In this document: positions 2,924 through 33,288 of the stretch, one piece after another
Layout: every line of letters starts with the position of its first letter
Numbering within the stretch: the first letter of the stretch is position 1
Assembly (NCBI RefSeq): GCF_020532825.1
Contig: NZ_MQTS01000231.1
Coordinates: 56,280-92,159, forward strand
DNA from: Arthrobacter sp. SO3
GTDB lineage: Bacteria; Actinomycetota; Actinomycetes; Actinomycetales; Micrococcaceae
Direction of reading: 5' to 3'
DNA: 35,880 nt
The notes under the pieces: model-generated
Database searches by the model: none
Told to the model about the DNA's origin: nothing
What the model saw: the letters and a program-made list of their open reading frames with translations, nothing else
Made by a program: the position numbers and the translations under genes

Positions 2924-3075
2924 TTCTGCATCACGGACGCGTTTCCGGCGGCGTGAGGTCTCTTTTACCCGCCGGACACATTATCTGCACGCTGCTGTTA
3001 CACCCCGGACCTAGCTTGGGTATGTGGCCGCAGTTGCGGCTGAGCCCGGGAGAGATGTACCAGAGAGGGGCCGGA

Positions 3076-3453
3076 ATGACTGCCGTACTTGAGAGCGCAG
3101 CACGGAGCTTTATTGAACACCCCAGCTACGGGACCGGCTGGCACCGCGTGTGCGCAGTGGATGACCTGGAACCGGCCTGGGGCGAGGCCGCGCTCATTGC
3201 GGGGCGCCAGGTGGCGTTGTTCCGCACAGGGGCCGGTGAGGTTTTTGCGGTCGCCCAGGAGGATCCGGTGACCGGGGCGCACGTGATGGCCCGGGGCATC
3301 ACCGGGTCCCGTGGCTCGCGCCCGACGCTTGCCTCGCCGCTGCACAAGGAGGTCTACGACCTCGGAACGGGGGAGTGCCTTGGCTCGCCGGAACTCCGCC
3401 TCCCGACCTTCGGTACCCGGATTGTGGGCGGGTACATTGAGGTCGAGCTCTAG
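3076..3453 (+). CDS. nirD: Nitrite reductase [NAD(P)H], small subunit
   Basis: A 125-residue Rieske-fold protein of the NirD family, the small partner of NirB. It has the family pattern WHRVCAVDDL near residue 24, a central segment giving cofactor-free Rieske strands (GRQVALFR, EVFAVAQEDP), and the closing ASPLHKEVYDLGTGECLG. The cysteines and histidines that hold a cluster in true Rieske proteins are not arranged as ligands, as is normal for NirD. I start at ATG 3076 (MTAVLESAAR) behind AGAGGGG; an in-frame ATG at 3055 behind GGGAGAG is an alternative and would add seven residues. The gene is divergent from nirB and ends just before the convergent phosphomutase gene. Confidence 0.9.
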   Translation: MTAVLESAARSFIEHPSYGTGWHRVCAVDDLEPAWGEAALIAGRQVALFRTGAGEVFAVAQEDPVTGAHVMARGITGSRGSRPTLASPLHKEVYDLGTGECLGSPELRLPTFGTRIVGGYIEVEL

Positions 3454-9035: not shown

Positions 9036-10493
9036 CTAGAACGGGTACGGGGCGATGTCCGGACGCACCGTGAGCCACTGGATTTCCGTGAAGGACTCCA
9101 TATTGGCGTGGTGCCCGCCGATCCGGGAGCCGTTGCCGGAGTTCTTCGTCCCGCCGAACGGTGAGTTCGCCTCGTCGGACACCGTTTGTTCGTTGATGTG
9201 GACCTTCCCGGAGTCCAGCTGGTCGGCAATGGTCATGGCCATGCCCACATCGCCCAGGATGCCGATCGAGAGCCCGTATTCGTTGCCGTTGGCGAGGGCC
9301 ACGGCTTCCGCCACGGTGGAGAACTTCATCACCGGGGCCACGGGGCCGAAGATCTCGTCCTTCCATGCGGGGCTGGCGACGTCGAGGTCGGCGAGGACGG
9401 TGGGCTGGTAGAACCTGCCGTCGTGGGTTCCGCCGGCCGCCAGCCGGGCCCCGCCCTGAACGGCGTCCTGGACGATCGAATCGACCCGGTGCAACTGCTT
9501 CTCGTCGATGATCGGGCCCAGCGCCACGGTCCCGCTCTTGGGGTCTCCGACGGGAAGATGCGTGGCCTTCTCCGCGAGGGCGCTGACATAGTCGTCGTAG
9601 ATGTCCTCATGGACGATGTGGCGCCCGGCGGCCATGCAGATCTGGCCCTGGTGCATAAAGGAGCCGAACGCCGCGGCGGAGGCGGCTTTGGGCAGGTCCG
9701 CGCCCGGCAGCACAATGAGCGCGTTGTTGCCGCCGAGTTCCAGGTGCGCGCGTTTGAGCAGCCGCCCGGCCGCCTCGCCGATCTTCCGCCCGGCCGCCGT
9801 CGAGCCGGTGAAGGCGATGACGGCGACCTCGGGGGCCTCGACGACGGCAGCGCCGATGTCGGCTCCGCCGGGAAGCAGCGCCAGGAGCCCGGGAGGCAGC
9901 CCGGCCTCCTCGAAGATCCGGACCAGGGTGACCCCGCCGCAGACGGCGGTGCGGGGATCCGGTTTGAGCAGCACGGCGTTGCCTAGGGCCAGCGCCGGGG
10001 CGACGGCGCGGATGGAGAGGATCAGCGGGAAGTTGAACGGCGCAATCACGGACACGACGCCGACCGGACGCCGGCGGGCGAAGGACCAGCGGTTTTCGTT
10101 CGAGGTGAGGACGTCCCCGGCCGGGAGGGAGGGCAACGCCGAGGCGTCGTAGCATTCGTTGGCCGCGATGTGCGTTTCCAGGCCTGCCTTGGGCCCAATG
10201 CCGCCGGACTCGCGCACGATCCAGTCCTGGATCTCGGCGGCATGCTCCTCCCAGAGCATCCCGGCGCGGCGCAGCACGGCGGCGCGGTCCTCAGGGTTGA
10301 GTTTCGCCCAGTCCTTTTGGGCGGCCGCCGCTGTTGTGGCGGCTTCACGGACATCGTCCACGGAGGCGAGGCCGTAGCTGCCCAGCGATTCGCCGGTGGC
10401 GGGCTCGACGGCGTCGGCTGTCCCGCCGCCTCCCGGGCGCCAGCCGTTGAGGTAGATCTTTCCCTCCCAGAGGGAGGCGTCAAGCAGGGACAT
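9036..10493 (-). CDS. NAD(P)-dependent aldehyde dehydrogenase (benzaldehyde/salicylaldehyde type)
   Basis: A 485-residue aldehyde dehydrogenase. The oxyanion asparagine is N154 (IAPFNFPL), the cofactor loop is FTGSTAAGRKIGE (228-240), the general base is E252 (LELGGNN) and the nucleophile is C286 (HQGQICMAAG). DEIFGPVAPV follows near 380. The segment NGWRPGGGG at the start and the HQGQICMA form are common in aromatic-aldehyde dehydrogenases such as XylC, but the substrate is not fixed by sequence. The start is ATG 10493 behind AAAGGACAG. The frame is open 13 more codons without support. The neighbours do not form a pathway with it; it appears to be a single transcription unit. Confidence 0.92.
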   Translation of the reverse strand: MSLLDASLWEGKIYLNGWRPGGGGTADAVEPATGESLGSYGLASVDDVREAATTAAAAQKDWAKLNPEDRAAVLRRAGMLWEEHAAEIQDWIVRESGGIGPKAGLETHIAANECYDASALPSLPAGDVLTSNENRWSFARRRPVGVVSVIAPFNFPLILSIRAVAPALALGNAVLLKPDPRTAVCGGVTLVRIFEEAGLPPGLLALLPGGADIGAAVVEAPEVAVIAFTGSTAAGRKIGEAAGRLLKRAHLELGGNNALIVLPGADLPKAASAAAFGSFMHQGQICMAAGRHIVHEDIYDDYVSALAEKATHLPVGDPKSGTVALGPIIDEKQLHRVDSIVQDAVQGGARLAAGGTHDGRFYQPTVLADLDVASPAWKDEIFGPVAPVMKFSTVAEAVALANGNEYGLSIGILGDVGMAMTIADQLDSGKVHINEQTVSDEANSPFGGTKNSGNGSRIGGHHANMESFTEIQWLTVRPDIAPYPF

Positions 10494-10673
10494 GTCCTGT
10501 CCTTTCATCGTGGGGGAAACGTCGTACCGCACCGACCAGCCGACTGTGAACCGGACCGGGGCCTTTGTACATCACATGCCGCTGGGCCCGGGCCGTCAAG
10601 AGTGCGGTGCCGTTTCGAGACGGCGGGGCGTTCGGCCCTACTTCTTCACCCCGCCGCGCGGACACACTGGGAC

Positions 10674-15081: not shown

Positions 15082-16634
15082 TCAGGCCACAGCTCCCTGA
15101 AAGTGCTTCTCGATGATCCCCTTGATGTCGTCATGGCAGCCGCCGCAGCCTGTCCCGGCGCGGGTGGCGCCGGAGACGTCGGCGACCGTACCGCAGCCGT
15201 CGCTCACCGCGGCGGCAATCCTGGTCCCGCTGACCCCGGCGCACCGGCAGACGGTCCGCGCGGGATCAACCGCCCCGGCTGCGGCCGCCTGGTCCGGGCC
15301 GTCGAGACGCAGCAGCAGGGACCGGTCCGCGGGGAGCTCGGCACCGCGCTCGAAAAGCTGCACCAGCTCGGCCGCGGTGCGGGGCATGCCCACCGCCACC
15401 AGGCCTTCGAGCACTCCGGCCCGGGTGGTCATCTTCACGTACCGGCCGTGCTCGGGATCGGCCCACTGCGCGATCTGCAGCCGGGCGCGGCCGTTCACGG
15501 CCCCGGCGGCCAGGGCTTCCTCATCCCACGGTTCGGCGGAGACATCCCCGGCCACGGCCATGTTCATGCCGCGGGCCTTGAGCACCACCACACCCGGCAG
15601 TTCGGCCGGCAGCGCCGGAAGAGCCTCAGCGTCCGGCGTCCCGGACGCCAGCAGCGTCAGGTACTCGGCGAGCCATTCGGCCTGCCGCCAGCCCGGGCCC
15701 ACCAGTCCGGAGGGGCCGCGTGCGGTGCGGCACTGAAGGCATTCCGGATCGGGGCAGCGGACCTCGGCGCAGTCGCCGATCGCAAAGATGTGCGGCTCGT
15801 GGTGTGCCCGGAGCTTGTGGTCCACCAGGATCCCGGCCGCTGTCGACAGGCCGCAGCCTTCGGCGAGCTCGGTCCGCGGCCGGACGCCGCAGGAGAGCAC
15901 CAGCAGGTCGCCGTCGATCGCGGACCCGTCGTCCAGCAGCAGCGCCGAGAAGCCGCCGTCGGGCCCGTTGTGTTCCACGCCGGTGGAGCGTGCGTTGCCG
16001 GCCACCCGCACGCCGCAGTTCCGCAGCGACGCCGCGAGCACGGCGCCGCCGCCGCGGTCGATGTTGCGGCCCAGCGGATGCGGGCCGTTGTGCACCACCG
16101 TGACCGTAGCGCCTTCCTCGGCCGCGGCGAGGGCCGTCTCCAGGCCCAGCACGCCGCCGCCCAGCACCACCACGCGCTTGCCGCCGGCCACTGCCGCCTG
16201 CAGCACCGAGGCGTCGCTCAGGTCCCGGAGCGCGGTGACGCCGGCGGGCAACACGGGCGCGGCCGGGTCCGGGTTGAGCCCGGTGAGGTTGGGGATCACG
16301 GGGCGGGAGCCGGTAGCGAAGACCAGCCGGTCGTAGCCGGGGGTGCTGCCGTCGCTGAGAATCAGCTGCTGCCGGGCGCGGTCCACCCGGCGGACCCGGA
16401 CGCCCAGCCGGACGTCGACGCCGTCGGCAATCAGCGCGGCGGCGTCGGAGAGCGCCAGGGCAGACGCCGTGGTCCGGCCGACCCCGAGATCCGCCACGAG
16501 CACCCGGTTGTACGCGGCCGTTGCCTCCTCGCCGACCACCGCGAGGTGCGCGAGTCCGCTGCGGACCGCCGGCAGCAGTTCGTCGACCAGCCGCGCGGCC
16601 ACCGGCCCGAAGCCCACAACAACAATGCGTTCGG

Positions 16635-16638
<4 letters not shown>
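15082..16638 (-). CDS. FAD-dependent oxidoreductase with BFD-like [2Fe-2S] domain, nitrate reductase partner (NasB-like)
   Basis: A 518-residue flavoprotein resembling the N-terminal half of NirB and the NasB electron-transfer subunit. It has FAD loop VVVGFGPVAARLVDE (6-20), second Rossmann VVVLGGGVLGLETALA near 176-191, FAD-site IFAIGDCAEV near 288-297, and a C-terminal BFD-like [2Fe-2S] domain with C464, C466, C482, C498 and C501 (CRC, GCGT and GCGGC). It probably carries electrons from NAD(P)H to the adjacent nitrate reductase. Its ATG overlaps the stop of the nitrate reductase gene by 4 bp (ATGA), so the two are translationally coupled. An extra cysteine cluster CPDPECLQC near 302-310 is notable. 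Confidence 0.9.
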
Positions 16639-18884
<2,246 letters not shown>

Positions 18885-18885
18885 G

Positions 18886-20322
18886 TTAGACGTGTCCCAT
18901 CGCGTTTCGGCTGGCGTTGCGGATGTAGCAGAACCAGCAGACGGCCAGCATCAGGATGTAGGCCGCGACGAAGCCGTAGAACGCGGGGGTATAGGAGCCG
19001 CTGGCGGTGTTCGAGGCGTTGAGTACCTGCGGGATGACGAAGCCGCCGTAGGCGCCGATGGCCGAGATCAGGCCCAGTGCCGAGGAGGCCAGCCGCTGGG
19101 TGGCCACAGTGCTGGCCTCCGCCTTTGCTGCCCGGCTGGAGGTGGCGAAGATGATCGGGATCATCCGGTACGTTGCACCGTTTCCGAAGCCGCTGGCGGT
19201 GAAGAGCAGCAGGAACAGGCCCAGGAAGAGCCAGAAGTTCTTCAGCGGCAGGGTCCAGACCATGGTCAGGGTGATGACGGCCATCGCACCGAACGCTGCG
19301 ACGGTCATCCGGGCGCCGCCCATGCGGTCCGCCATGCGTCCGCCGTAGGGGCGGGCCAGCGAGCCGACCAGCGGGCCCAGGAATGCGAGGGACAGGGCCA
19401 CGGTGCCGACTCCGATGGAGGAGAACGCCGGGAAGTAGTCCTTGATGAGCTTGGGGAAGACGCCGGCGAAGCCGATGAACGAGCCGAAGGTGCCGATGTA
19501 CAGCAGTGCCATGATCCACAGGTGCGGTTCCTTGAGCGCGGCGAGTGAGCCCGCGACGTCGCCCTTGGCACTGGTGAGGTTGTCCATGTACTTCCAGGCG
19601 CCGAACGCGGCGAGCAGGATCAGCGGGACCCACATGAGTCCGGCGACCGGCAGGTTCACGGTGCCGGCGGCCAGCAGGGTGATCGCAATCGGAACGGCAA
19701 GCTGTGCGACGGCGGCGCCGAGGTTTCCGCCGGCGGCGTTCAGGCCCAGCGCCCAGCCCTTTTCACGGGCCGGGTAGAAGAAGGTGATGTTGGCCATCGA
19801 GCTGGCGAAGTTGCCGCCGCCGAAGCCCGCCAGCGCCGCCACGAACAGCATGGTGCCGAACGGGGTCTCCGGGTTGGAGACGCACATGGCCAGCCCCGTC
19901 GAGGGGATCAGCAGCAGCAGGGCCGAGACGATGGTCCAGTTGCGGCCGCCGAAACGGGGGACCATAAAGGTGTACGGGATGCGCAGGGTGGCCCCGACCA
20001 GGCTGGGCATCGAGATCAGCCAGAAGATTTCCGAGGTGGTGAAGGTGAAGCCGGCCGCGGGAAGCTGGACGACCACGATCGACCACAGCTGCCAGACCAC
20101 GAACCCCAGGAACTCGGCGAAGATGGACCAGTTCAGGTTGCGCTTGGCAATGGAGCGGCCCTGGGACTCCCACTGATCCTTGTTCTCGGCATCCCAGTTC
20201 GCGATCCAGCGGCCGGGACGGAACTCCAGGGCGGGGCCGCCGAGGGTGGTGCCGGCGTCGAGTCGGGGGGAAAGGCCGGGGGAAACGCCGGCTTCGGCGC
20301 TCGCAGTTCGTTCAGCAGTCAC
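18886..20322 (-). CDS. narK: Nitrate/nitrite transporter, NarK family
   Basis: A 478-residue major facilitator transporter with about 12 membrane helices and a roughly 70-residue cytoplasmic N-terminus. NarK-type features are the nitrate signature-like segments GFGGGNFASSMANITFFYPAREKG (about 171-194) and GFGNGATYRMIPIIF (about 378-392), both rich in glycine, and arginines in helices 2 and 8 (RIPYTF; ARPYGGRMADR). The start is GTG 20322, preceded by AAAGGAGGT, the strongest ribosome site in the window. The 11 codons open upstream are not needed. It is first in the operon with nitrate reductase and its electron partner, so it most likely imports nitrate and perhaps exports nitrite. Confidence 0.94.
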   Translation of the reverse strand: MTAERTASAEAGVSPGLSPRLDAGTTLGGPALEFRPGRWIANWDAENKDQWESQGRSIAKRNLNWSIFAEFLGFVVWQLWSIVVVQLPAAGFTFTTSEIFWLISMPSLVGATLRIPYTFMVPRFGGRNWTIVSALLLLIPSTGLAMCVSNPETPFGTMLFVAALAGFGGGNFASSMANITFFYPAREKGWALGLNAAGGNLGAAVAQLAVPIAITLLAAGTVNLPVAGLMWVPLILLAAFGAWKYMDNLTSAKGDVAGSLAALKEPHLWIMALLYIGTFGSFIGFAGVFPKLIKDYFPAFSSIGVGTVALSLAFLGPLVGSLARPYGGRMADRMGGARMTVAAFGAMAVITLTMVWTLPLKNFWLFLGLFLLLFTASGFGNGATYRMIPIIFATSSRAAKAEASTVATQRLASSALGLISAIGAYGGFVIPQVLNASNTASGSYTPAFYGFVAAYILMLAVCWFCYIRNASRNAMGHV

Positions 20323-20369
20323 GGGGGACCTCCTTTGGGGATGTTGTCCTTCCAAAGTAGGGAAGCCGC

Positions 20370-28033: not shown

Positions 28034-30763
28034 TTATCCGTTGTGCCCGTTGTGCCCGTTGTGCCCGTTGGCGTCCCTGGCGCCGGGGGCGGCCGCCAGG
28101 CTGCGGCGCGCGGCAGCCCGGGGTCGTTTGGGGCGGCGAAACATGCGGCGGACCAGGGCCAGACTTTCTCCGACGTTGATGGTGGGGAGGTAGGCCCTGG
28201 TGACGGCGTTTGCGATGGCGGGCAGCGACGCAGTGTCCGGATAGAGCATGTAGAGAGGTTCGTAGCGGGGCTGGAACTTCGCTTTGAACGCCAGCAGGGA
28301 TCTGAACCCGTAGACCGGTTCCAGGTTTGCACCCAGCCAATCGAGAAGCCGGTCCAGGCCGCCGGCGGTCTCCGGGCCCGAAGGCGCGGGATGGTGCAGT
28401 TCGTCCGGGTTCACCCGGGCCAGGGGCGCGCCGGAGAGGCTGATGAATTGGCATCCTTCGTCCTTGAAGCGGAGCGCGGCGGAGGCAATGAGGAATTCGA
28501 TGCCGGCACGGAATCCGGTGCTGCGGCGACGCATGTAGTCCAGGGTCCAGCCCTGGATGATGCCGTTGCGGTAGACGGGCAGCCAGGACAGGACAGCGTG
28601 GACCCTGTGTTGGCCGTCGATGGCGAGCAGCAGACGGACATCGGGGTCGTTGAGTTCGTCCAGGCCACCAAGGGTGAACCCCATCTCTGGCATCTTCTGG
28701 TCTGCCACCCATTCTTCGGAGATTTCCTGGATCTGGGCCAGGACCGAGAAGGGTGCGGTGGCGTATGTCGTCCACTCAGCGCGTATCCGGGCCTTTGCGG
28801 CGTTGTTCATAGCGGTGCGGATGTCCTGGAATTTCTTTCCCCTGAAGGACAGCGAGTCCAGCGGCAGGACGGTCTCCTGTGCCACCTGGACGGACCCCCA
28901 GCCGAGGGATACGGCGTGGTCGCGCAGGTCCAGTGGGACGGAATAGAAGCACGGTGTCCATCCCTGGCCGGTGCAGAACCGCGTGAACTCCACGAATGCG
29001 GCTTTACCCTGGGACCCGGGCCCGACAGGTACGCCCAGTGTCAGGGCGATCCCGGCGATGACACGGTAGGCGATGAAGACCTCACCGGTTGAGGAGAACC
29101 AGTAGCTGTTCCCCGGCCACGTCGTCATCCAGGACAGGTTGCTGCCCTCCTGTGTTTTGAGTATTTCCCGCGCGCGGGCGGCGCCGGCATGGTGTTGGAT
29201 CAGGGCCGGGCGCAGGAACGTCTTAAGGACAAGGACGGCAGTCGTGGCCCAGAAGATCACGCCGATGCCTTCGTACAGCAGAACCGCCGCAGTGCTTTGG
29301 GGGAAGAACGCCGGGGAAACGTCCAGCATGTATCCCAGTGGCAGGAACCTGTCCGGAATGTCGGCCAGGAGTTCGGCGGCTCCGGGAACGGGCGTGAAGC
29401 CGCCGGAGAGGGCCAGCCCCGCGAGCAGGTAAAACGCCCCGAGGACCGCCCCGACGGTAAAAACCTGTGACGCCAGCCGGGTGTAGGCGCCCGGCGGTAC
29501 CGCCACTTGGAAAAGTGGCCGTGCTATCAGCAAGAGAATGCTGAGGGCCACGGGCAGCAACAGCGGCAACACCAGGCTGACTGGATGTGAGTAGCCCAAC
29601 GCTTCCATGGTGGCGATTCCCTCGACGGCGGCGGTGTCCGGTGCCGCCTGGTAGAGGACACCGGCAATGGTGATGCCGGCCAGTACGGACAGAGCCAGCT
29701 GGATCAGCAGGGCACCGGCCCAGGCGAAGCGGCGTCCACGGCGAAGACCATCCGCGAGCAGCAGCAACAGGAACGATGGGAGGATCGCCATGAAGAGGCC
29801 GCCGGCCCCGGCACGCAGCTGCAGTTGGGCGGCCGCGCATTCCTTGGCCTGCCTAGGGTCGGCGCAGAGGCCCTGGAGTGTCTCCGGGTCTAAGGGCTGG
29901 ATGTTGGTAAACAGAAAACGCAGGACCGACAGGGGCCCGGCGGCGTGCGGTGTCAGGCCGGCGACGACGGGGCCGATGGCCGAGACCGCCACCAGAAGTG
30001 CGATCAAAACGCGTCCTTCATGCCGGGAGCTCACAGGACGGCCGAACCGGGGACGTCTGCCGAGCAGTACCGGGCCAAGGAGGGTGCCGGTACCTGCGGC
30101 GCCGAGCCTGACAAGGTCGGCGAATCCGCCGCTGTAGAGAGCCAGCAGTATCAGCAGGGCGAAGACCACCAGACGGACACGACGCCGCCACAGGGTCGGC
30201 ATCATCGCCGTCCCCGCCATCGTCGCCCCGGTCATCAGTGCACTGGGGCCAAGGAACACGTGCCCGCTCATTTCCTGGGTCCAGGTCCCCATCGTCTGAC
30301 GTGCGACGGCCAGGAACCCGAGAGCGGCCGCAATTCCGAGGATTTGGGGGACAAGAGCCGCCGCGGCGAACCGCAAGCTACCCATTCGGCGTTCAAAAGC
30401 CAGGCCGACGGAGAAAACCACGGCGCTTCCCAGAAGGTAAGCGGCCAGGTTCTGCGCCCAGAGGCCGGAGGTCAGCAGCGCCCACCAGTGGCCGGGCACG
30501 GAGTTCACCGTCGCTGCCACATGTGGCCGGAGGGGTCCGGTCGGGCCGGTGATGAGACTGGACGAAAGTGCACCCGCAGCCCAGAAGGCCAGGACAAACC
30601 CCACCGTCACCGGCGCGGCACGCAGTATTTTCAAGAGCCTCGGGCCGGACGATGCCGAGTTCGCTTGATCCGGCGGCAGCACTGGCAAGAGGTTTCCTTT
30701 CAGGGGGTCGGCATCAATACGCGCTCCAGAAGGTGCCCGAAGGTTGGTGGTCCACAGGCTCAC
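28034..30763 (-). CDS. Aminoacyl-phospholipid synthase-like membrane protein (rhomboid-like N-terminus, DUF2156 C-terminus)
   Basis: A 909-residue protein if it starts at GTG 30763. That codon has no ribosome site; TTG 30688 or GTG 30682 behind AAAGGA is as likely and would remove about 25 residues. Residues about 50-260 look like a rhomboid fold (WWALLTSGLW, FERRMGSLRFA, GPSALMTGATMAG). The GxSx serine is present, but the usual histidine of the later helix is not seen, so protease activity is doubtful. More helices follow to about 520. Residues about 535-850 match the DUF2156 domain of MprF/LysX-type lysyl- or alanyl-phosphatidylglycerol synthases (NSYWFSSTGEVFIAYRV, YMRRRSTGFRAGIEFLI, FKAKFQPRYEPLYMLY). 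The probable role is moving an amino acid from tRNA to membrane lipid. The C-terminus is a GHN tripeptide repeat. Confidence 0.85.
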   Translation of the reverse strand: MSLWTTNLRAPSGARIDADPLKGNLLPVLPPDQANSASSGPRLLKILRAAPVTVGFVLAFWAAGALSSSLITGPTGPLRPHVAATVNSVPGHWWALLTSGLWAQNLAAYLLGSAVVFSVGLAFERRMGSLRFAAAALVPQILGIAAALGFLAVARQTMGTWTQEMSGHVFLGPSALMTGATMAGTAMMPTLWRRRVRLVVFALLILLALYSGGFADLVRLGAAGTGTLLGPVLLGRRPRFGRPVSSRHEGRVLIALLVAVSAIGPVVAGLTPHAAGPLSVLRFLFTNIQPLDPETLQGLCADPRQAKECAAAQLQLRAGAGGLFMAILPSFLLLLLADGLRRGRRFAWAGALLIQLALSVLAGITIAGVLYQAAPDTAAVEGIATMEALGYSHPVSLVLPLLLPVALSILLLIARPLFQVAVPPGAYTRLASQVFTVGAVLGAFYLLAGLALSGGFTPVPGAAELLADIPDRFLPLGYMLDVSPAFFPQSTAAVLLYEGIGVIFWATTAVLVLKTFLRPALIQHHAGAARAREILKTQEGSNLSWMTTWPGNSYWFSSTGEVFIAYRVIAGIALTLGVPVGPGSQGKAAFVEFTRFCTGQGWTPCFYSVPLDLRDHAVSLGWGSVQVAQETVLPLDSLSFRGKKFQDIRTAMNNAAKARIRAEWTTYATAPFSVLAQIQEISEEWVADQKMPEMGFTLGGLDELNDPDVRLLLAIDGQHRVHAVLSWLPVYRNGIIQGWTLDYMRRRSTGFRAGIEFLIASAALRFKDEGCQFISLSGAPLARVNPDELHHPAPSGPETAGGLDRLLDWLGANLEPVYGFRSLLAFKAKFQPRYEPLYMLYPDTASLPAIANAVTRAYLPTINVGESLALVRRMFRRPKRPRAAARRSLAAAPGARDANGHNGHNGHNG
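28040..28067. repeat. Three tandem 9-bp repeats at the 3' end of the DUF2156 gene
   Basis: Three copies of GTTGTGCCC plus a partial, in frame, giving the C-terminal NGHNGHNGHNG. The number of copies can change by slippage without loss of frame. Confidence 0.8.
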
Positions 30764-31384
30764 GGCCCAAAATCGAGGTGTCGACTTCGTGCATCATATT
30801 CATAGTGGAGCGGCCGGAGCGCACGCAAAATCCACCAATTCGGGATCAATCACGGCTGCTGCTTCAGAGAGGAAGCATCAGGTGACGTCGCGGAGGCAGC
30901 ACACTCAGAGAAACTGGGGTCAGCAGCGGACGCGCCTCTGGAATGCCGACAAGGAACAGCCGCCGCAACCGGATACGAATGCGCGGATGATTGTCGCAGG
31001 CTCTGGTTTCGACCAAATACATTCCTTCATTCTCCGATGCCTGGCTGGGAGCACCATGAGCATCAACCGCGATCGACGCGCGGGAGCGGCAGGGCTGGGG
31101 TGGTTTACGGCCGCCGGACTTTATGAGGCGCCGCGCGATACCCCGCACAAATGGCGAAGCTCCGGTCAAATAGCGGTTGACCGGAGCTTCGGTCCATTAT
31201 GAGTGGGGGAACCTTGACGTTCGCTGGGAAAACCAGCCGAGCTTCTCGTAGGTGTCCGGGGGGCTGACCTTCCGGTCCCTCGCGGATCGGCCCGGGGGCT
31301 TGGCCGGGGGGGCGGAAGACCCTGTCAGCGGATGTTTGCCCGTGGTGGAGTTGAACGGGGATCCTACGGAGAATCGAGCAGCCC
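30764..31384. other. 621-bp region without a convincing gene
   Basis: It separates the DUF2156 gene from the cytochrome b operon and has lower GC than its surroundings. Long frames on both strands lack protein-like composition. A 48-codon frame at 31056-31202 (plus) has GGGAG before its ATG but overlaps a strong hairpin. A TTGACG at 31214-31219 lacks a matching -10 box. Confidence 0.5.
31156..31190. terminator. Isolated perfect hairpin
   Basis: 14-bp perfect stem (31156-31169 with 31177-31190) and a 7-base loop. No recognised gene ends here on either strand. It may end an unannotated small RNA or small gene, or protect the cytochrome operon from read-through. Confidence 0.5.
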
Positions 31385-31552
31385 ATGACTGGATGGCTAG
31401 TAGCAAGCCTTGGCACGGTTGGTGACGGAACGTATTTTGGCTGGGACGGCTTCACGATCCAGTCAGGAAACCTGATAGTGATCGTCGTGATGATCATCCT
31501 GTTCGTTCTGGCCCTGGTCCTTCCCTTTCCCGGCGGGAAGCGGCGGAAATGA
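31385..31552 (+). CDS. 55-residue membrane peptide, first gene of the cytochrome b operon
   Basis: A gene starting at ATG 31385 and ending TGA 31550-31552, overlapping the ATG of the cytochrome b gene by 4 bp (ATGA). The peptide has a short polar exterior part (MTGWLVASLGTVGDGTYFGW), one hydrophobic helix at about 30-48 (LIVIVVMIILFVLALVLP) and a basic tail GGKRRK. A weak GGAG lies 13 bases upstream of the ATG. The size, single helix and coupling to a cytochrome b gene suggest a small stabilising subunit, in the manner of the small Pet subunits of cytochrome b6f. No homologue is recognised from sequence. Confidence 0.7.
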   Translation: MTGWLVASLGTVGDGTYFGWDGFTIQSGNLIVIVVMIILFVLALVLPFPGGKRRK

Positions 31553-32274
31553 GCGCCCACGCGACACCGCGGCCCGGGATACCGGCCGATGAAACTGACG
31601 CCCACACCTGGACCGGCAGGGCCCGCCAGTGGCTCTTGAAGAAGCTTCCTCCGGACAAGCTCTTGCCCGAGGACCAGCCAAGCTACGTGGCGTCCTGGGC
31701 GTACGTCTTCGGCATGGGGGCCATCGCTTCCCTGCTGTGGATCATCATCTCCGGAATCGTGCTGGGACTGAACGGACCCCAGTGGTATCACGTGTCCTCG
31801 CTGGGGAGCTTCGTCAACAGCACCCATTTGTGGAGCGTGGAACTCTTCTTCATCTTCATGGTGGTGCACCTGTGGCTGAAATTCTGGATGGCGGCCTGGC
31901 GCGGGGGCCGGGTCCTGACCTGGATCACCGGAGTGCTCTCCTTTGTCGTTTCCATCGTGGCGGCCTTCACCGGGTACCTGCTCCAGACGAACTTCGATTC
32001 CCAGTGGATTGCCTTTGAAGCCAAGGATGCGCTGAACGCGGTCGGGGTAGGCGCCTGGTTCAATGTGGCCAACGTCGGGCAGCTCTTCGCCTGGCACATC
32101 ACGCTATTGCCCCTGGCCGTAGGTGCGGTGGTGGTCCTGCATGTCCTGCTGGTCCGGGTCCACGGCGTTGCACCGCCGCTTGAGGCCGCGGAGTCCGACG
32201 CCCAGCTGCTTCACCACCGCCCGGAGTCCACCCAATCTCCGGAGTCCACCGAATCCCGGGACGCAGTGCGATGA
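31549..32274 (+). CDS. b6-type cytochrome b (N-terminal domain only)
   Basis: A 241-residue membrane protein with the four-helix heme-binding core of cytochrome b. Two heme ligand pairs are in place: H93-x13-H107 (STHLWSVELFFIFMVVHLW) and H183-x14-H198 (WHITLLPLAVGAVVVLH). The 14-residue spacing in the second pair is the cytochrome b6 / menaquinol type rather than the bc1 type. Helices lie at about 50-72, 95-115, 122-145 and 180-205. The C-terminal tail after 210 is acidic and His/Ser/Glu-rich. It ends ATGA-overlapped with the next gene. There is no Rieske or cytochrome c gene in the window, so the electron partner is unknown. The role is probably quinol oxidation or transmembrane electron transfer. 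Confidence 0.9.
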   Translation: MSAHATPRPGIPADETDAHTWTGRARQWLLKKLPPDKLLPEDQPSYVASWAYVFGMGAIASLLWIIISGIVLGLNGPQWYHVSSLGSFVNSTHLWSVELFFIFMVVHLWLKFWMAAWRGGRVLTWITGVLSFVVSIVAAFTGYLLQTNFDSQWIAFEAKDALNAVGVGAWFNVANVGQLFAWHITLLPLAVGAVVVLHVLLVRVHGVAPPLEAAESDAQLLHHRPESTQSPESTESRDAVR

Positions 32275-33224
32275 CCCGGAAAAGCAGCAGCATCTCCTGG
32301 CGGAAGACGGACGACCTTGCCAGCCGGCCCTGGACGGGCAGCGTCCGCGAATATGACCTGATCAAGGAACTGATCATCGGTGTCGTGGTCGTCGGCCTGC
32401 TCGTGCTTGGCGTTTCCGCCATCTTCGGGTCCCCTGATGAGCCCAGCGTCAGCCTCAAAGCGTGGGCCACGGCCGCTCCGGCGGATTTCGTTGCCACCGC
32501 AACAAAGGAACTTGCCGGAACCAGCGATAGCGCGGGCTACGGGCCGCCCTACAACCCAACGCCGGACGCATCGCAGAAGATCGGCCCCGTGGACCTTCAA
32601 AGCCTCTCCGGCGTCCGCCTTCCGGTCGACAACGGCAACGACTTCGTGATCGCCCCGCTGGCGACGCTGCCGTCGCCGCCAGCCGACCTGGCACTCTGGA
32701 CGGCCGCCACCGACCAGCAACGCTCGGACTGGGCAGCTGCCTATTCCATCGCCCTTGCTGCTGCTCCCGACAACGACCCCGCCAAGGTCGCCGACGGCGA
32801 CTACGGCCCGGCCCCGGCGCTGACCGGGGCATTGCTGGACATGGCCCGCCAGGGCAGTCTGGACGGCGTGCTGCAGAACGGCGGAAACTTCTACAACACG
32901 GACTACACGCGAAGCCTCCTGTTTCTGGGAGACGGCAGCTATTTCCCTGGTCTTGCGGCAAGCCAGCACCTCTCCGGGGATCAATGGGGCGTGATGAACG
33001 AAACCGGCGATACTCCGGGGCAGTCCTGGCTGTGGCTCTTCTCGCTCCTTTACCAGGTGGAACCGTTCAAGTCCGCAGCTAATGCCGACGCCCTGGTCGT
33101 CGTGACGATGCTCGTGCTCACGGCATTGCTGACCTTCCTGCCGTTCATCCCCGGTCTCAGGTCGCTGCCACGGAAGATCCCTCTTCATCGTTTGGTCTGG
33201 AAGGACTACTACCGCAATCGTTGA
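32271..33224 (+). CDS. Membrane-anchored partner of cytochrome b, unknown family
   Basis: A 317-residue protein overlapping the cytochrome b gene by 4 bp, so presumably made with it. It has a cytoplasmic lead (about 1-30, with RPWTGSVREYDLIKE), one helix at about 33-53, a roughly 200-residue outer domain, and a second helix at about 274-293 followed by a basic end (RSLPRKIPLHRLVWKDYYRNR). There are no cysteines, so no heme c, Rieske cluster or disulfide. The segment QSWLWLFSLLYQVEPFKS before the last helix is placed like the PEWYFLxxYAILRS region of cytochrome b C-terminal halves, but the PEWY itself is lost. It may be a rebuilt subunit IV; I recognise no family. Confidence 0.82.
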   Translation: MTRKSSSISWRKTDDLASRPWTGSVREYDLIKELIIGVVVVGLLVLGVSAIFGSPDEPSVSLKAWATAAPADFVATATKELAGTSDSAGYGPPYNPTPDASQKIGPVDLQSLSGVRLPVDNGNDFVIAPLATLPSPPADLALWTAATDQQRSDWAAAYSIALAAAPDNDPAKVADGDYGPAPALTGALLDMARQGSLDGVLQNGGNFYNTDYTRSLLFLGDGSYFPGLAASQHLSGDQWGVMNETGDTPGQSWLWLFSLLYQVEPFKSAANADALVVVTMLVLTALLTFLPFIPGLRSLPRKIPLHRLVWKDYYRNR

Positions 33225-33256: not shown

Positions 33257-33288
33257 ACTGCCCGCCGATCCAGTGATCAGCGGGCAGT
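33257..33288. terminator. Terminator between the cytochrome operon and the MMPL gene
   Basis: Outer stem ACTGCCCGC/GCGGGCAGT (33257-33265 with 33280-33288), one C-A mismatch, an inner GATC/GATC stem and a 4-base loop. It sits between convergent stops and can act in both directions. Confidence 0.75.

Follow-up and report, generated by a model that had tools for sequence, protein, structure and literature searches.

A conserved three-gene cytochrome b module without a Rieske protein in Arthrobacter sp. SO3 and its relatives, with a possible role as an accessory menaquinol-linked complex

INTRODUCTION

Known quinol-oxidizing cytochrome b complexes depend on a Rieske protein, which splits two electrons. 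We describe here a three-gene module that lies at positions 31385–33224 of a 35,880-nucleotide stretch of Arthrobacter sp. SO3 (the window, which belongs to contig C148 in a draft genome of 4.75 Mb whose close relatives carry the names Arthrobacter and Pseudarthrobacter) and that encodes a 55-amino-acid membrane peptide, a cytochrome b and a third membrane protein, here called p3. The module is conserved, it lacks the Rieske protein, the c-type cytochrome and the Qo motif by which the known cytochrome b quinone complexes are defined, and it is separate from the QcrB–Rieske pair of its own genome. With a probability that we put at roughly 0.4, it is a menaquinol-linked transmembrane b-cytochrome complex, accessory and non-bifurcating, that likely forms part of a response to oxygen limitation (dormancy).

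Among described systems, the cytochrome b6f complex (cytochrome b6 plus subunit IV; 1q90, 1vf5, 6rqf) is like the module in having a four-helix cytochrome b with H-x13-H and H-x14-H, a second membrane subunit that comes next and a small single-pass peptide in the set. It is unlike the module in that the latter has no Rieske or cytochrome f gene and no PEWY motif, and p3 has a predicted outer domain of about 200 residues and no detectable sequence homology to subunit IV. Cytochrome b6 is the closest solved relative of the module cytochrome b by sequence (1q90_B, profile E-value 1.8e-13) and a weak match to it in fold (E-value 0.017, TM about 0.4); the b6 segment GYSLPWDQVGYW aligns with GYLLQTNFDSQW of the module. 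Actinobacterial QcrB (NF050120), of which the same genome has a copy on contig C161, shares membership of the cytochrome b superfamily and the His spacing, but the two proteins are 26 % identical in the matching part and fall on opposite sides of a tree, the module cytochrome b scores 25.8 on NF050120 (cut-off 500), and the PDWY of QcrB is absent from the module. The best NCBIfam match is to ExtP (NF040969), the b-type cytochrome of a Geobacter selenite/tellurite operon (E-value 4.7e-15, profile positions 11–202 of 205); membership of that family was considered and rejected, the score being 56 bits against a cut-off of 290.

A further point of comparison is the OsdR/DevR (DosR) regulon of Streptomyces and Mycobacterium. 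Boxes of the OsdR pattern stand upstream of many module copies, and some module neighbours have counterparts among the Streptomyces coelicolor OsdR targets listed in PMC5069765, which include universal stress protein (Usp), PPDK, nitroreductase and pyridoxamine oxidase genes (PPDK and nitroreductase each occur near the module singly). Phosphoketolase, a frequent neighbour of the module, is not in Table 1 of that paper, nor does the word 'cytochrome' occur in its main text. Databases name the cytochrome b variously as 'cytochrome b N-terminal domain-containing protein', 'cytochrome B6' or 'ubiquinol-cytochrome c reductase cytochrome b subunit', and p3 as 'hypothetical protein'. A search of open-licence PMC papers found no description of such a module, which is a weak negative.

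RESULTS AND DISCUSSION

Conservation and distribution of the module

The three open reading frames (ORFs) are on the + strand and encode the single-pass membrane peptide (31385–31552), a b6-type cytochrome b of 241 amino acids (31549–32274; PF13631/PF00033) and p3, a two-helix membrane protein of 317 amino acids (32271–33224). They are linked by two ATGA overlaps, and the ORF calls thus agree with the initial annotation of this DNA, both in the positions of the genes and in the way that they are joined. Taking one genome for each GTDB species, we confirmed 154 loci in a scan and retained the 80 best for inspection. The cytochrome b gene precedes p3 on the same strand in all of 91 loci, with a gap within 60 nt in 71 of them and one of more than 300 nt in three (L059, L064 and L004, the last of which has a fused gene), while ATGA overlaps occur in at least 57 of the 91, a lower bound because some cytochrome b ends were read beyond the stop codon. 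The peptide was found in 64 loci (tblastn, E-value 1e-5 or less). Homologues are numerous: 4373 of 8000 scored candidates for p3 (E-value 1e-3 or less), 3118 of 7998 in a profile search with distant p3 sequences, and, for cytochrome b, 4969 of 6319 candidates, among which other cytochromes b may be included. Given these thousands of homologues, a peptide that can be aligned in 62 relatives and the invariable adjacency of cytochrome b and p3, the set is a real conserved module and not a chance arrangement.

The peptide itself has no Pfam or NCBIfam match. When the peptides of the 62 relatives were aligned with that of the window, a pattern of W-G, I-Q/S, G/A-N, V-I and LPFP or PFP emerged, as read from every second row of the alignment; in seven of the ten Chloroflexi loci no peptide was detected at an E-value of 1 or less. 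It is a candidate small subunit of the module, which we take to be comparable with the PetG, PetL, PetM and PetN small subunits of b6f.

By their titles, the best 80 of the 154 loci come from 67 Actinomycetota, 10 Chloroflexi bins and three bins labelled Acidobacteria. The Actinomycetota are mostly Micrococcaceae and Microbacteriaceae, together with Streptomyces, Kitasatospora, Amycolatopsis, Pedococcus and Acidimicrobiales. The p3 proteins of the three Acidobacteria-labelled bins are 61–68 % identical to that of the window, and these bins may be misbinned. Counting the window's own genome each time, the module was present in 11 of 396 genomes sampled across the phylum, 9 of 396 across the order (one a fragment) and 18 of 121 across the genus (two broken); it is thus an accessory module of patchy distribution. 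A 2-Mb genome, G094, has two copies (G094:C8:1423-2313, locus L014, and G094:C16:3425-4321, locus L013). In two genomes of the same genus as the window, p3 is split over two frames or present as fragments only (G822:C1:1114732-1115704 and G891:C6:1336-1594), and in one further locus, L056, the cytochrome b has an internal stop; these may reflect either decay of the module or assembly errors.

The cytochrome b

The window's cytochrome b exceeds the Pfam cut-offs for PF13631 (57.4 bits, cut-off 27) and PF00033 (29.3 bits, cut-off 27.2) and no cut-off in NCBIfam, where the models for ExtP, cytochrome b6, SoxC and QcrB match far below theirs. Its heme-ligand histidines form two pairs, H93-x13-H107 and H183-x14-H198, placed on helices B and D as in the bc1, b6f and bcc complexes. 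The initial annotation had described a b6-type cytochrome b with this spacing; both motifs are indeed present, but H-x14-H is not specific to b6, since the QcrB of the same genome has both spacings. An AlphaFold2 model contains four long helices (pLDDT 72, pTM 0.52). In an alignment of 195 sequences (the window, 69 of the 91 loci, 120 listed homologues and five fusions) the four histidines are kept in 195, 195, 194 (one gap) and 192 sequences respectively, and four helix glycines are without any substitution. The other 22 loci were omitted because the read ran beyond a stop; 20 of them show the identical His pattern, and the remaining two are L056 and L054, whose cytochrome b is cut by a contig end. 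Mean identity is 0.85 in the outer CD loop and 0.88 in the inner BC loop.

Absence of Rieske and cytochrome c partners, and relation to QcrB

No Rieske protein was found by tblastn with four queries (E-value 1e-3 or less) in 94 loci, except in the QcrB locus itself, nor within up to 10 kb on each side of the best 80 loci. In all 11 carrier genomes that were checked there is no Rieske match within 25 kb of the module on its contig, contig ends permitting. The sole Rieske-family match on a module contig at less than 300 kb is some 28 kb from the module, in the window's genome (ORF 2953–3453, + strand; Pfam E-value 6e-5) and was rejected, as it has no Rieske Cys-His pairs and appears by eye to be of the NirD type. 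ORFs of fewer than 700 amino acids with a CXXCH motif occur within 4 kb in 10 of the 80 loci when all frames are counted; the one that passed the gene caller is thioredoxin-like by eye and was likewise rejected, leaving no credible c-type cytochrome within 4 kb in these loci. The earlier statement that no Rieske or cytochrome c gene is nearby therefore holds for the window and for its relatives, and none was found in an operon with the module.

The PEWY-type motif P[ED]W[YFHL] is absent from all 91 p3 ORFs and from all 240 listed p3 homologues, and the looser P-x-W[YFHL] occurs once in each set, both times near the C-terminus. In the 11 QcrB-type loci of the carriers the corresponding sequence is PDWY (nine), PVWY (one) or PEWF (one). 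All 11 carriers have, besides the module, an ordinary QcrB with an adjoining Rieske match, there being two cytochrome b matches per genome in 10 of them and three in G094; the three-gene synteny in genomes that keep QcrABC, which the initial annotation had named as support for a separate system, is thus seen as far as QcrB and Rieske are concerned. In a maximum-likelihood tree, 21 module proteins and 11 proteins of the QcrB type fall into two separate groups with support of 100/99; the tree has long joining branches and an unsettled bootstrap, and contains no b6, bc1 or ExtP sequences. The module cytochrome b is therefore neither a branch within ordinary QcrB nor the only copy in its genome, and the module is separate from the genome's own QcrB–Rieske pair. 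Of the earlier suggestion of a distinct quinol-linked oxidoreductase, the distinctness from QcrB is borne out by the tree and by the coexistence in 11 of 11 genomes, while the link to quinol is something that we infer.

That QcrB and Rieske are kept in every carrier checked also means that partners would be available in trans. The module cytochrome b might then take the place of QcrB at low oxygen, using the Rieske protein (QcrA) and diheme cytochrome c (QcrC) of the same genome to form a modified bc complex. We consider this distinctly unlikely, since the module has no PEWY-type motif and a shorter CD loop than b6, a large outer domain of p3 is predicted where the Rieske head would dock, the tree sets the module apart from QcrB, and the partner to which the cytochrome b is fused in some genomes is p3.

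p3 and its pairing with cytochrome b

Five of the 120 listed homologues of the distant-p3 profile search are fusions of this kind, 528–538 amino acids long, with cytochrome b at the start and p3 at the end; one more was found in G080, a carrier genome in a single contig, which makes six distinct fused proteins. Whether cytochrome b and subunit IV are fused in this order is what sets the bc1-type protein apart from b6 with its separate subunit IV. Because of the natural fusions, cytochrome b and p3 most likely form one complex.

p3 reaches no Pfam or NCBIfam cut-off, and a PDB search found neither a similar fold nor a similar sequence. As the initial annotation had noted, it has no cysteine; the same is true of 77 of the 91 related ORFs and of 234 of the 240 listed homologues. 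Its AlphaFold2 model (pLDDT 71, pTM 0.56) contains a helix at residues 30–52, a helical domain, a helix at 251–262, judged by eye to be amphipathic, and a helix at 272–292, with the predicted outer helical domain of about 200 residues placed between the two membrane helices. In agreement with the positive-inside rule, the p3 termini and the cytochrome b BC loop, which would face the cytoplasm, are predominantly basic, and the p3 domain is acidic. The topology of helix, amphipathic helix and helix is in the order of subunit IV, and together with the fusions it suggests p3 as the predicted partner occupying the place of subunit IV.

A well-conserved stretch of p3 is residues 213–250 (mean identity 0.81), which runs into QWG-x-x-NETG-x-x-PGQ-x-WLW. 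Residues E244, P249, G250, Q251 and W253 are invariant in 47 sequences, with the glutamine replaced in the more distant L013 and L014, and ETG-x-x-[PS]G is found in 239 of the 240 listed homologues. H233 is the sole near-constant histidine. Given the few cysteines and variable histidines, the outer domain probably holds no metal cofactor.

This conservation invites another explanation, that the outer pocket is a quinone site of a new type in which the NETG glutamate acts as the PEWY glutamate does, so that the module exchanges electrons between two quinones, or between quinone pools that differ in potential, without a Rieske protein. The invariant residues and the order of the p3 helix, amphipathic helix and helix, which is that expected of subunit IV, speak for such a site; p3 has no measurable homology to subunit IV, and exchange within a single pool would only leak protons, so that we regard it as rather unlikely.

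The direction of flow may also be the reverse of that proposed below. Periplasmic dehydrogenases have cytochrome b subunits that pass electrons inward to quinone, and p3 might similarly accept electrons from an outer donor, with the b hemes delivering them to menaquinone at the cytoplasmic side. Good conservation of the outer CD loop, of p3 213–250 and of the inner BC loop is compatible with this, a two-heme b anchor suits donors as well as acceptors, and the arrangement could conserve energy. No neighbouring gene is kept across the family, however, and p3 is almost free of cysteine and has no universal histidine; inward flow thus seems unlikely to us, if less so than a new quinone site.

Upstream boxes and neighbouring genes

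A candidate DosR/OsdR-type box, GGGGGCGGAAGACCCT, lies at 31308–31323 on the + strand, its start 77 nt ahead of the start codon of the peptide gene, and matches GGGNC-N4-GNCCC exactly. This pattern was picked after a first look at the sequences, and it agrees with the published OsdR consensus AGGGCCGATCGGCCCT (PMC5069765). We scored 78 upstream regions, those of the window and of 77 of the 80 loci (three were dropped), with the start placed 190 nt before cytochrome b where the peptide was not found. Exact matches at 40–140 nt upstream occur in 25 of the 78 regions (200 shuffles gave 0.55 on average and never more than 4), and with one mismatch or none in 44 regions, against a mean of 12.1. A matrix was made from the 25 different sites in Table 1 of PMC5069765 (sites predicted, some tested by electrophoretic mobility shift assay). 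Judged against 4000 control stretches, 25 of the 78 regions exceed the 95 % level with this matrix and 11 the 99 % level. Regulation of the DosR/OsdR type is thus supported for the family and suggested for the window's copy, as far as such motifs can indicate it.

Clustering of the flanking ORFs revealed no partner gene kept across the family. In single loci, genes for universal stress proteins, DevS/DevR-type regulators, PPDK, CBS and M50 proteins and nitroreductase were seen nearby by eye, and nine such marker families were counted by tblastn in the 80 loci and in 40 controls, each 20 kb long; the controls were drawn from three genomes belonging to a single order, and 14 came from contigs in the window's genome that were familiar from earlier matches. 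Usp was found in 20 loci versus 1 control, pyridoxamine oxidase in 16 versus 0, phosphoketolase in 13 versus 0, and two or more of the nine markers in 19 of the 80 loci (8 of 26 labels) versus 1 of the 40 controls, although these counts are generous, since the queries were taken from module loci picked by eye. After removal of the six loci that had supplied queries, Usp remained in 15 of 74 (p 0.0062), pyridoxamine oxidase in 13 (p 0.0024), phosphoketolase in 11 (p 0.0065) and two or more markers in 14 (5 of 23 labels, versus 1 of 40; p 0.0096). Part of the module loci are therefore set among dormancy-type genes, and the enrichment is moderate at the level of the family.

Six loci of an Arthrobacter group (L031, L032, L035, L036, L040 and L064) have Usp, phosphoketolase, pyridoxamine oxidase and P-type ATPase genes within 10 kb, and appear to share a recurring gene island. 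In the carrier G087, 11 of 17 Usp matches lie within about 17 kb of the module, and in G085 and the window's genome the Usp matches are elsewhere. G094 has 13 Usp matches, eight of them on contig C8, which also has a module copy, at a distance of about 33 kb or more. One DevS-like kinase is encoded in the window's genome, on another contig and with an in-frame stop.

Such neighbours, and a p3 without evident cofactor ligands, might also be expected if the module were to sense redox state or oxygen at the membrane, or serve as a scaffold, instead of being a redox enzyme. Against this, the heme His pairs and helix glycines are kept at 98 % or more, as is typical of electron transfer, and no signalling domain is attached, and we consider a sensor or scaffold very improbable.

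Proposed function

On the reading that we prefer, an accessory menaquinol-linked complex, cytochrome b, p3 and the peptide would assemble into a complex of four plus two plus one helices with hemes bL and bH, in which the two helices of p3 take the position of subunit IV. There being no Rieske protein, no classical bifurcation or Q-cycle is to be expected, and a b core of four helices that has kept both of its heme sites would form a wire across the membrane. Menaquinol would donate electrons at the cytoplasmic (Qi-like) side, from where they would pass via bH and bL to an outer pocket made of the cytochrome b CD loop and the NETG-x-x-PGQ-x-WLW segment of p3, and leave to a small acceptor or a second quinone, the outward direction being favoured by the membrane potential. 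The module might thus relieve an over-reduced menaquinone pool under oxygen scarcity, working as a one-way outlet for electrons. Of these steps, the direction of electron flow is the least certain.

A number of our results weigh against this reading. Both AlphaFold2 models are of middling confidence (pLDDT 72 for cytochrome b and 71 for p3), and hhalign of p3 against a subunit IV profile (built from one split subunit IV and 10 QcrB-type proteins, of which the C-terminal half was used) gave a probability of 2.4 % with shallow alignments, and so no support for homology. The LPW segment that follows helix C in b6 is missing from all 91 module cytochromes b, but it is likewise missing from the genome's own QcrB (GYSLPDD), so that its absence is not diagnostic. 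H233 of p3 is lost in L012–L014, and hence no outer cofactor can be named. The box of the window is weak, its 4.3 bits against the published OsdR sites being reached by 14 % of control stretches, and the window as a whole has two exact matches to GGGNC-N4-GNCCC where 4.8 would be expected by chance. Regions further upstream of the module copies are also slightly enriched in matrix matches (8 of 77 above the 95 % level and 2 of 77 above the 99 % level).

The same holds for several of the marker counts. None of the nine markers is present in 56 of the 80 loci, and the flanks of the window's own copy (MprF-like and MMPL genes) contain no dormancy genes. With the query loci removed, one or more markers occur in 19 of 74 loci versus 6 of 40 controls (p 0.14, not significant), and three or more in 11 of 74, which represent 2 of 23 labels; the remaining signal is mostly from Arthrobacter, and the loci are interrelated. 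DevR, DevS, PPDK and Zn-dehydrogenase are not enriched near the module, and CBS, M50 and nitroreductase were found only in the locus that had supplied the query.

A wider proposal, which we put forward tentatively and hold to be doubtful, is that the module stands for a type of cytochrome b quinone complex distinct from both bc1/bcc and b6f, and so for a third one. It would be free of a Rieske protein and non-bifurcating, with p3 replacing both subunit IV and the Rieske head and the NETG-x-x-PGQ-x-WLW pocket standing in for PEWY, and would act as a hypoxia-induced menaquinol outlet in Actinomycetota and Chloroflexi. A b lineage that keeps its heme ligands, has neither PEWY nor a Rieske partner and is joined by a p3 of unknown fold would show a b-heme wire acting alone. 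If the link to dormancy is true, it would also mean that soil actinobacteria have a low-oxygen respiratory outlet that present annotation names hide.

Other features of the window

The module is flanked by an MprF-like gene on one side and an MMPL-family gene on the other, both on the opposite strand. The MprF-type protein (28034–30763, − strand) matches LPG_synthase_C (E-value 1.8e-78), and a rhomboid match in its N-terminal membrane part is weak and below threshold. Some 200 bp ahead of the operon, at 31157–31189, there is a 13-bp inverted repeat (AAGCTCCGGTCAA/TTGACCGGAGCTT). The ends of p3 and the MMPL gene converge, and between them lies a perfect 9-bp inverted repeat (ACTGCCCGC/GCGGGCAGT; 33257–33288), a possible shared terminator of the two genes; it has no T run, and no terminator was called there.

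At the left end of the window, the ORF at 82–2934 (− strand), which stands beside the NirD-like ORF, is possibly NirB by eye, and positions 15082–20355 appear on the same basis to be a nitrate/nitrite assimilation cluster that includes a molybdopterin reductase-like gene (16635–18884) and a transporter-like gene (18886–20355). The best match to the OsdR matrix in the window is CGGGGCGTTCGGCCCT, at 10624–10639 (13.3 bits), about 92 nt upstream of a − strand gene at 9036–10532; this gene, by eye an aldehyde dehydrogenase, is possibly hypoxia-regulated.

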